DNA of 11,237 nucleotides. Source: Verrucomicrobiota bacterium. GTDB taxonomy: Bacteria > Verrucomicrobiota > Verrucomicrobiia > Chthoniobacterales > UBA10450. Below the pieces are notes generated by a model that saw nothing but the letters and a program-made list of their open reading frames with translations, was not told the origin of the DNA and did no database searches. The stretch spans positions 25,056 to 36,292 of the forward strand of contig QHRC01000075.1 in NCBI GenBank assembly GCA_003219995.1, read 5' to 3'. This document shows positions 9,081 to 11,237 of the stretch, one piece after another. The stretch's first letter is position 1. The number at the start of each line of letters is the position of its first letter. The translations under genes and the position numbers were made by a program.

Positions 9081-9995
9081 ATGCCTGCGGCGCTTGAGCA
9101 AGTCGAAACGAAACCGACCGTCACGCGATCCACTTTTGTTTTCCGCTTTATCAGCACGATCGTCCTTTGGTCGGTCGCGCTGGTCATCGCCTTTTCCGGT
9201 TACGAATTTGCGTTCTACGGGTTGATCTGCGTCTTCGGTCTGATCGCGCTTTGGGAATTTTATCGGATGCTCGATCACCGCGGTCTGCCGAACTTCAAGA
9301 TCACAGCCATGATTTGCGGCGCGGTCATGTTAATCGGAAGTTTTTATTACTTCGCGAAAATGGGACCGGCACGCTCCTATGACTTTGAAGTCGCGGTCCT
9401 GGTCTTTTTCTTGCTGACGGTTTTCGCGCGGCAAATGTTTGCACGCCTGCGCCATGACGAACCGCTGCAGACGATGGCCTATACGTTGTTCGGTCTGCTC
9501 TACGTGCTGTGGCTGTTCAATTTCATGACGAAAATTGTTTACCTAATGCCGCGCACGAGCAGTGGCGCGGTGACGGGACAGTTTTACTGCCTGTATCTGA
9601 TCGCGGTCACGAAATTCAGCGATATGGGCGCGTATCTCGTTGGCAGCGGGGTCGGGCGCCACCTGATGAGCCCGCATATCAGTGCAAAAAAAACGTGGGA
9701 AGGCTTCTTCGGTGCGCTTGCTTTCGCGCTACTCGCCAGTTTGATGTTGTTCAAATTGATGCCCGGGCATTTGGGGGCGCTTAACTGGACACATGCGATC
9801 ATACTAGGATTGTTGCTCGGTTTTGCGGCCGTGGTCGGCGACTTGGCGGAGTCGATCATTAAACGCAGCACCGGCGTGAAGGATTCGGGGAATTTTCTGC
9901 CGGGAATTGGTGGCGCGCTCGATTTGGTCGACAGTCTGCTCTTTACCGCGCCGCTTTTGTTTTTTTATCTGCGACTTGTCATTCGCGTACCGTGA
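9081..9995 (+). CDS. cdsA: Phosphatidate cytidylyltransferase (CDP-diacylglycerol synthase)
   Basis: An integral membrane enzyme converting phosphatidic acid and CTP to CDP-diacylglycerol, the precursor of bacterial phospholipids. The 304-aa protein is a series of hydrophobic segments with the family blocks KFSDMGAYLVG (168-178), SPHISAKKTWEGFFGA (187-202) and the C-terminal signature from Ser248 to Asp274 (SIIKRSTGVKD, then GNFLPGIGGALDLVDS). Two positions of the classical signature differ: the His of GHGG is Ile266, and the Arg between the two Asp is Leu272. The metal-binding Asp271 and Asp274 remain. ATG 9081 is the first start after an in-frame stop at 9069. It is the first gene of a + strand group. 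uppS, often found before cdsA, is absent. The stop overlaps the GTG start of the next gene (GTGA). Confidence 0.93.
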   Translation: MPAALEQVETKPTVTRSTFVFRFISTIVLWSVALVIAFSGYEFAFYGLICVFGLIALWEFYRMLDHRGLPNFKITAMICGAVMLIGSFYYFAKMGPARSYDFEVAVLVFFLLTVFARQMFARLRHDEPLQTMAYTLFGLLYVLWLFNFMTKIVYLMPRTSSGAVTGQFYCLYLIAVTKFSDMGAYLVGSGVGRHLMSPHISAKKTWEGFFGALAFALLASLMLFKLMPGHLGALNWTHAIILGLLLGFAAVVGDLAESIIKRSTGVKDSGNFLPGIGGALDLVDSLLFTAPLLFFYLRLVIRVP

Positions 9996-10453
9996 AAACT
10001 CAAATTTCTGACAGAATTAACAAAATAAACAGAATCAAAGAGGCACCGGCGGCCTATGATTTGTGCGGTCAGATTATCGGCCTAGCGATGAAAGTCCACT
10101 CGACGTTTGGTCCCGGTTTTCTCGAGTCCGTCTATCAGAATGCGCTGGTCTGGGAATTGCGGAAAAGTGGATTTAGATCCGAAGTGCAAAGGCCTATTAG
10201 CGTGACATACGATGGCCAGATCGTCGATGCGTTTGCGGCAGATATGTTGGTCAACGATTCAGTCATCGTTGAAGTCAAAGCCATTCAAACGCTGGGAAAG
10301 CCACACGAGATTCAACTTGTAAATTACCTAACAGCAACCGGATTGAACGAAGGTTTGCTCCTGAACTTCGGCGCTGAGCGGCTGGAATTTAAGAAAAAGT
10401 TTCGTTTGCCAAAAACAGAGTCAGCTTCTCCCAACTCCGAAATCATTCTGTAG
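9992..10453 (+). CDS. GxxExxY-family protein (PDDEXK-like)
   Basis: A 153-aa protein of the GxxExxY family (TIGR04256/PDDEXK_3-like). The name motif is GFLESVY (Gly42, Glu45, Tyr48). It is followed by the nuclease-like core with Asp84 (AADMLV) and Glu94-Val-Lys96 (VIVEVKA), and then by LGKPHEIQLVNYLTATG and LLLNFG. This order matches the D...ExK pattern of PDDEXK nucleases, but no activity is established for the family. The GTG start overlaps the cdsA stop codon. The early residues DRINKINRI are encoded by an AT-rich inverted repeat, and the TAG stop lies inside the matching repeat at the other end. The domain proper begins near residue 22. The gene splits the cdsA-dxr pair and looks like an insert rather than a pathway member. 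Confidence 0.85.
   Translation: MKTQISDRINKINRIKEAPAAYDLCGQIIGLAMKVHSTFGPGFLESVYQNALVWELRKSGFRSEVQRPISVTYDGQIVDAFAADMLVNDSVIVEVKAIQTLGKPHEIQLVNYLTATGLNEGLLLNFGAERLEFKKKFRLPKTESASPNSEIIL
10010..10035 (+). repeat. Left inverted repeat of the GxxExxY cassette
   Basis: Made of units GACAGAAT, TAACAAAAT and AAACAGAAT (9-bp period). It matches the reverse complement of 10445-10470 at 22 of 26 positions without gaps. It is translated as DRINKINRI near the start of the GxxExxY protein. Confidence 0.8.
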
Positions 10454-10470
10454 ATTCTGTTCATTCTGTC
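10445..10470 (-). repeat. Right inverted repeat of the GxxExxY cassette
   Basis: Read on the minus strand: GACAGAAT, GAACAGAAT, CTACAGAAT (9-bp period). It contains the TAG stop of the GxxExxY gene (10451-10453) and ends six bases before the dxr ATG, taking the place where a dxr ribosome binding site would be. Confidence 0.8.
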
Positions 10471-10476
10471 GAAAAA

Positions 10477-11237
10477 ATGAAACGTAAACGCGTCGTCGTT
10501 CTTGGCGCGACCGGGTCGATCGGCGAAAGCGCGCTCAAAGTCGCACGCGACATTCCGGAGCGGATGGAAATCGTTGGTCTGGCCGCGAATAGAAACGCAG
10601 GAAAACTGGCGGCGGCGGCGAACAAGGCCCGCCCAGAGTCCGTTTGCCTGGTTGATGAAGCACAGATCGGCATCCTGCGAAGTGCACTTGAGTACAAACC
10701 CCAGATTTTTTCGGGCGAAGATGGGTTGTGCGAGATCGCTTCTCTGGCGAATGCCGACATGGTGTTGGTCGCGATCGTTGGCACCGGGGGCTTACGCCCC
10801 GCCCTGGCGGCGATTGACGCGGGCAAGGATCTGGCGGTGGCGAGCAAGGAGATTTTGGTGATGGCGGGTGAGATTGTGATGCGCGACGCGAGCGCGAAAA
10901 GTGTGCGTGTTTTGCCAGTTGATTCGGAGCACAATGCGATTTTTCAATGTTTGGATGGTCGCGCGTCCGAAGTCCGCCGAATAATTTTAACGGCGTCGGG
11001 CGGACCGTTTCGCGAAATGCCGGCGGAAGAGTTTGTCGATGTTGCGCCGGAGCAGGCCCTCAAGCACCCGACTTGGAACATGGGGCCGAAGATCACGATA
11101 GATTCGGCCACGCTATTTAATAAAGGACTGGAGATGATCGAGGCGCACTGGTTATTCGCTGTGGAAATGAAGCGCGTCGAAGTGGTGATTCATCCGCAAA
11201 GCATTGTCCATTCGATGGTCGAATTCGCCGATGGCTC
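10477..11237 (+). CDS. dxr: 1-deoxy-D-xylulose 5-phosphate reductoisomerase, N-terminal part (runs off window)
   Basis: A cytoplasmic NADPH-dependent enzyme that turns DXP into 2-C-methyl-D-erythritol 4-phosphate, the committed step of the MEP isoprenoid pathway. The 253 codons present are about two thirds of the usual 398. Features are the NADPH-binding GATGSIG (10-16), VAIVGTGGLRPALAAIDAGK, ASKEILVMAG (most members have ANKE), metal-binding Asp149 and Glu151 in PVDSEHNAIFQCL (E. coli D150, E152), TASGGPFRE, HPTWNMGPKITIDSATLFNK and GLEMIEAHWLF. The frame is open to the window edge. ATG 10477 follows a run of six A and the right inverted repeat of the GxxExxY cassette, with no Shine-Dalgarno sequence. 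It probably belongs to the same transcription unit as cdsA, supplying isoprenoid precursors for envelope lipids. Confidence 0.95.
   Translation, partial: MKRKRVVVLGATGSIGESALKVARDIPERMEIVGLAANRNAGKLAAAANKARPESVCLVDEAQIGILRSALEYKPQIFSGEDGLCEIASLANADMVLVAIVGTGGLRPALAAIDAGKDLAVASKEILVMAGEIVMRDASAKSVRVLPVDSEHNAIFQCLDGRASEVRRIILTASGGPFREMPAEEFVDVAPEQALKHPTWNMGPKITIDSATLFNKGLEMIEAHWLFAVEMKRVEVVIHPQSIVHSMVEFADG

Follow-up and report, generated by a model that had tools for sequence, protein, structure and literature searches.

Inverted unit arrays around a GxxExxY nuclease gene between cdsA and dxr: a candidate nuclease-repeat partnership in Verrucomicrobiota

Here we analysed an 11,237-nucleotide stretch of a Verrucomicrobiota genome (contig QHRC01000075.1; hereafter the window), in which a small GxxExxY nuclease gene lies between cdsA and dxr and is bounded by two inverted arms, each an array of the 9-bp unit ACAGAATNA. 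On balance, we favour reading this element as a REPIN/RAYT-like partnership between a nuclease and its repeats, built on a PD-(D/E)XK enzyme of the Cas4 and lambda exonuclease type that would recognise the units, cleave them and mobilise them in trans. The bounding arrays are most likely recognised by the element's own GxxExxY protein. The source genome is a 2.1 Mb draft in 285 contigs, about 77% complete.

Paired unit arrays at the ends of GxxExxY genes

The left arm agrees with the reverse complement of the right arm at 22 of 26 positions, as an earlier note on this DNA had claimed. This exceeds chance: none of 300 dinucleotide shuffles of both flank regions reached 22 (mean 15.1, maximum 19), and the arms are the sole pair with at least 22 of 26 matches within 1 kb anywhere in the window. 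The left arm doubles as coding sequence for the N-terminal DRINKINRI of the GxxExxY protein. The note was also accurate on the packing of the gene, whose GTG start overlaps the cdsA stop in a GTGA (9992-9995), with six bases (10471-10476) between the right arm and the dxr ATG. Orthologues at the same junction carry the same unit arrays. The left arm was found in 13 of them and has a mean pairwise divergence of 0.146, whereas fourfold sites in the flanking genes reach 0.523; the mean for the right arm is 0.091 (13 orthologues).

The window protein is a full-scoring member of its family, far above the cut-offs of TIGR04256 (35) and PF13366 (22), and the domain matches in Table 1 confirm that a PDDEXK-like gene sits between cdsA and dxr. 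The GxxExxY motif and the PD-(D/E)XK set are complete, and the four catalytic residues are invariant in alignments of 14 and of 54 sequences. The family is present in 48 of 58 relatives searched. The fold of the predicted model resembles Cas4, lambda exonuclease and Hjc nucleases at low identity, although a common fold is no proof of function; SSO0001 in this comparison is Cas4. A sequence search for solved relatives of the protein gave a single match at chance level (E 0.3).

Table 1 Features of the element and its neighbours in the window.
Feature	Position	Strand	Evidence or description
cdsA-type gene (phosphatidate cytidylyltransferase family; CTP_transf_1/CdsA), upstream host gene	9081..9995	+	PF01148, 172 bits
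GxxExxY / PDDEXK_3 nuclease gene, 153 aa, GTG start	9992..10453	+	TIGR04256, 135.3 bits; PF13366, 129.4 bits
Left arm, three 9-bp units: ACAGAATTA, ACAAAATAA, ACAGAAT	10010..10035	+	arm sequence GACAGAATTAACAAAATAAACAGAAT
Catalytic residues E45 (10124-10126), D84 (10241-10243), E94 (10271-10273), K96 (10277-10279)	10124..10279	+	alignment invariance
Right arm, three units, inverted array of the left-arm unit	10445..10470	-	minus-strand reading GACAGAATGAACAGAATCTACAGAAT
dxr (DXP reductoisomerase), 5' part, continues beyond the window; downstream host gene	10477..11237	+	PF02670, 132 bits; PF08436, 137 bits

Arms of this kind are common around GxxExxY genes. We compared arms within and between GxxExxY loci from named genomes of many phyla, taking the best 80 of 573 confirmed loci, of which 74 had enough flank. 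The 5' arm scored 23.8 on average against the 3' arm of its own locus and 11.7 (standard deviation 3.5) against those of other loci; 35 of the 74 self scores lie above the 99th percentile of cross scores, and 37 rank first. Control open reading frames (ORFs) from the same loci gave 11.5 for self and 10.3 for cross, with 2 of 64 above their own 99th percentile. An earlier test of 30 loci had returned similar values (24.2 vs 11.8); there L003, L010 and L020, whose unit arrays are confined to one side, ranked 19th, 22nd and 22nd.

Arrays were also counted directly. The search pattern was built from known units, and the rates therefore apply to those unit types. Filtering out loci with too little flank left 104 of 110 GxxExxY loci, 117 of 119 loci of a second, partly overlapping set and 26 of 30 Y1-transposase loci. 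Inward arrays stand on both sides of the gene in 69 of the 104 and 61 of the 117, and in none of the 26 Y1 loci or of 66 control ORFs. Outward arrays were counted as a control on the 104 loci: 18 left sides and 19 right sides have one, compared with 79 and 82 for inward arrays. The earlier note had considered that the repeats might be lacking around other copies, and most of the GxxExxY genes sampled proved to be armed. Spacing within an array is mostly 9 bp, with 8 and 10 bp as well, and arrays such as ACAGGATTA differ from that of the window element. The units are clade-specific, yet alike at both ends of one element.

Insertion and descent at the cdsA-dxr junction

Among 83 genomes of the same family, 70 had a dxr match, and their 80 loci reduced to 67 distinct cdsA-dxr junctions once duplicates were removed. 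An ACAGAAT-armed GxxExxY element occupies 15 of these (14 assigned by script, L042 by eye), and a CACGAAT-armed element with a different GxxExxY protein occupies two; a third locus of the latter type, L077, is cut by a contig end and was not counted. The spacer is 60 bp or shorter in 21 junctions, three of which have 0-3 bp. The other 29, whose sub-types were sorted by eye, comprise 19 with gene-less unit arms, eight with GGGAGCGC-type repeats and two with neither. The gene-less arms belong to other unit families, namely ACAGGATT, CACAAAGG, CACGAATG and CACGGATT. In genus g10 five junctions were read: 0 bp in G072, overlap in G021 and in G033, a 77-bp ACAGGATT mini-element in G027, and in G012 a 645-bp spacer that holds a mini-element plus the gene. 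Since the junction may be empty or may hold a mini-element, a mini-element with the gene, or other repeats, the GxxExxY gene is an insert by comparison with many relatives, as the earlier note had supposed, and several repeat families make use of the gap.

In L065 and L139 a remnant of the right arm is apparently retained in the short spacer. Palindromic repeats of the GGGAGCGCAGGC type, by eye unrelated to the unit arms, occupy eight junctions (L126, L134-L137, L144, L151 and L153).

The unrelated repeats in 8 of the 67 junctions would suit an ordinary host gene whose REP-like neighbours, of several kinds, are incidental and have collected in hot gaps. We regard this as very improbable. It is already disfavoured by the excess of self over cross arm matching, by the inward orientation of the arrays and by their absence from control ORFs.

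To follow descent, we sorted 117 GxxExxY domains into insertion sites by their flanks, giving 16 sites with at least two copies (95 copies). On the protein tree, 15 looser site groups require 19 changes, near the minimum of 14, where shuffled labels require 57.9. For 75 of 93 copies at shared sites the nearest relative is at the same site, and the larger sites are each occupied by a single protein clade. The 15 cdsA-dxr rows form one clade (98/96), whose sister is a clade of nine at gyrB-gyrA (100/98; gene names tested in L050). The unit of the gyrB-gyrA clade, ACAGGATT, is one base off that of the cdsA-dxr clade. In same-site pairs, subtracting the identity of the better flank from that of the element gives a median of -0.095. 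Values of dN/dS are mostly 0.05-0.13. The GxxExxY gene is inherited mainly vertically at its site, with arms and gene under purifying selection. Free transposition of the window element is disfavoured by the absence of copies in the draft genome, by the site-wise clades and by divergence that goes jointly with the flanks.

One pair departs clearly from this pattern. Between G022 and G034 the element is 0.957 identical and the flanks 0.825 and 0.878, which a homing or conversion event could leave. At the cdsA-dxr junction of G022 (L016), four segments follow one another: the new element, a 31-bp copy of the dxr start, a 3' remnant of an older, diverged element, and the real dxr. By eye, G060 and G012 each have a mini-element beside a full one, the two being separated by short copies of flank. 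These three arrangements look like rare conversion or duplication at an occupied site.

The G022/G034 pair would fit a homing-type selfish element, whose nuclease would cut alleles of its own junction that are unoccupied or older, with repair then copying the element in. The empty cdsA-dxr alleles, the site fidelity of the larger clades and a partial conflict between gene and flank trees (see below) also fit this alternative. Nevertheless, the element exceeds its better flank by more than 0.05 in only 3 of 336 same-site pairs, although faster divergence of elements could mask older transfers. The window protein matches 8 of 72,556 plasmid records and none of 50,697 phage records at E 1e-5; carriage by plasmids or phages was rejected on these counts, and a homing-type element appears improbable. 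The suggestion in the earlier note of a mobile or homing unit therefore survives in part. Free mobility is not borne out, since the larger sites are single-clade and flanks mostly co-diverge, while the G022/G034 pair is homing- or conversion-like. The contrary pattern that the note had named, a gene at the same position in all relatives with diverging flanks, is likewise seen in part, the larger sites each having a single clade and elements mostly diverging along with their flanks.

Gene-less mini-elements

Inverted arm pairs also occur without a gene. We scanned 58 genomes with the array pattern ACAGGATTNACAGGATT, allowing one mismatch, and found up to 53+53 matches in one relative; the reversed pattern gave none in all 58. 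The arms of G016 (46) and G028 (36) form 24 opposite-strand pairs, all of them inward. The two arms are 42-76 bp apart in 21 pairs, and 235, 426 and 673 bp apart in the others, the 426-bp pair being the full gyrB-gyrA element. Mini-elements are about 60-97 bp long and often abut a stop codon. With gene ends placed from open frames rather than from annotated genes, and counting long frames that end within 80 bp outside an arm, a stop at the arm itself is the commonest distance: ACAGGATT has 5 of its 26 stops at position 0, and CACGAATG 7 of 17 at -1. The left end is CTAG in 12 of 20 mini-elements by eye. A search for target-site duplications at cdsA-dxr and around mini-elements could demonstrate none; the CTAG or TAA at the ends of elements could be either a target copy or the element end. 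Array copy number is higher in genomes with the cognate GxxExxY gene, with one strong exception (G027, below).

Two side observations concern these elements. In L432 and L437 both ends of the mini-element coincide with stop codons of open frames converging from either side. The genome of the window also has a pair of unit arms with no gene between pgk and tpiA (L002:1447-1520), the only gene-less element with the ACAGAAT unit seen there.

The repeats might instead be moved by a second, unrelated enzyme such as a Y1/RAYT transposase, and Y1_Tnp genes are indeed present in 51 of the 58 relatives. This proposal was rejected, and we give it next to no weight: no testable Y1 locus (26 of 30 fetched) has arrays on both sides, one locus shows an inward array on a single side, and G034 and G044 carry ACAGGATT arrays (13 matches each) without a Y1 match.

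Arm pairing, intervening sequences and the REPIN/RAYT comparison

The arms can pair with each other. In the minimum-free-energy (MFE) fold of the window element (L024), 0.81 of the left arm is paired with the right arm, and at least half of it is so paired in 67 of 77 elements with an arm score of at least 19. Both neighbours were called in 68 loci (of 110); the gene runs in the same direction as both in 50 of these and antisense to both in five. Both results speak for the main rival explanation, an RNA element comparable to an intervening sequence (IVS). Here the arms would form a stem in the polycistronic transcript, RNase III or the nuclease would cut the insert free from the cdsA/dxr mRNA, and any DNA mobility would be secondary.

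The link to known IVSs comes from S23 genes (TIGR02436, four-helix bundle), the ORF of 23S rRNA IVSs, which share the armed architecture. The S23 loci L242-L271 from relatives, 28 of the 30 fetched being tested, have inverted short-unit arrays, with a self score of 22.5 vs 12.2 for cross; 14 of the 28 rank first and 11 exceed the 99th percentile. By eye they have different unit types (GTTGAGG, GTTCAGG and GTCAGGA). In the Coxiella 23S IVS, according to PMC4990558, the terminal stem is 28 bp long, excision is by RNase III and GACAGAT heptamers occur in tandem. The armed S23 genes, together with the heptamers and stem of Coxiella, tie the architecture to a known RNA-processing element, and the shared architecture suggests an origin for 23S rRNA IVSs. 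Like the IVS described there, the window element has a small ORF inside terminal inverted repeats capable of forming a stem, with short tandem units near the ORF start. Unlike it, the window element lies between protein genes rather than in 23S rRNA, and it encodes a nuclease rather than S23p.

As a full account, an IVS-like RNA role appears possible but unlikely. Pairing in the folds is partly a consequence of arm complementarity, the unit sequence is conserved beyond the needs of pairing, and 12 of 20 mini-elements are flanked on both sides by open frames of at least 55 codons ending within 80 bp, as between convergent genes. An Rfam search of the window returned no RNA family at gathering scores. 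Such a role is nonetheless compatible with a nuclease-repeat partnership, and the orientation bias fits both.

The partnership is modelled on RAYTs, which are described as single, vertically kept enzyme genes whose inverted repeat doublets are scattered extragenically as non-autonomous units (PMC8049555 and PMC3116915). The GxxExxY gene is similarly a single, mostly vertical gene beside its own repeats, with one case of transfer and partly conflicting trees, and inverted doublets of the ACAGGATT and CACGAATG units are dispersed in the genomes of relatives. In contrast, the enzyme is PD-(D/E)XK rather than a Y1/HUH tyrosine transposase, and the arms are arrays of 8-11-bp direct units rather than palindromic REPs. 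For replication of the doublets by the enzyme the comparison is mixed: array copies are higher with the cognate gene, but mini-element interiors are unrelated. The element differs from a classical transposon or MITE in having no near-identical copies in its draft genome, about 77% complete, and resembles a homing endonuclease element in its site fidelity and its empty alleles at cdsA-dxr.

We propose that the arms pair with each other, either in DNA that is single-stranded or in the transcript of the operon, and that the unit arrays are bound or cut by the nuclease. On rare occasions, repair or copying could then place arm doublets at gene ends, or convert them there, and the folded arms may keep the insert harmless within the operon.

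Several observations weigh against this reading. In the genome of the window, at its stated completeness, no second DNA copy of the element was found beyond a 22-bp match, and there is no ACAGGATT array, with four CACGAATG-type matches. Arm scores are at chance level (13 or lower) in 11 of the 74 loci drawn from the best 80 of 573. Besides the merged group S1, 7 of the 15 site groups, mostly small (S5, S7, S9-S12 and S15), do not form single clades, which implies a degree of movement or misgrouping. Gene and flank trees of 11 orthologues are both weakly resolved and only partly congruent: L038 and L039 group together in one tree, and L039 groups with L040/L041 in the other. A detectable partner arm is often lacking, with 16 inward pairs, one outward pair and 13 arms without a partner among 30 fetched ACAGGATT loci, and 13 inward pairs and 17 without a partner among 30 CACGAATG loci. 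The interiors of 20 fetched mini-elements are unrelated within each genome (mean scores 5.1 and 5.1 in G016 and G028, vs 4.7 and 4.5 when shuffled); recent copying of whole mini-elements is therefore not seen. Finally, G027 has the most ACAGGATT arrays (106 matches) and no GxxExxY protein of the matching clade at the cut-off used.

The earlier note suggested that such a unit could be undescribed. This holds for the literature that we searched, where no description of repeat arms around GxxExxY/PDDEXK_3 genes was found; most subscription journals and all preprints lay outside that search.

A nuclease-repeat partnership would link a common, uncharacterised nuclease family to recurring intergenic arrays of short units, turning two unexplained annotations into one testable system. 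The predicted substrate of each GxxExxY protein is its own unit array, and the system would be a non-HUH counterpart of RAYT/REPIN. More tentatively, and with rather less than even confidence, we suggest a large, unnamed prokaryotic class of nuclease and repeat, in which each GxxExxY lineage would read its own 8-11-bp word, keep inverted arrays around its gene and govern tens of gene-less hairpins at gene ends. S23 genes would be a parallel branch of this class, with 23S IVSs as the members that reside in rRNA. Many "anonymous" intergenic repeats in environmental genomes would then fall into one class.
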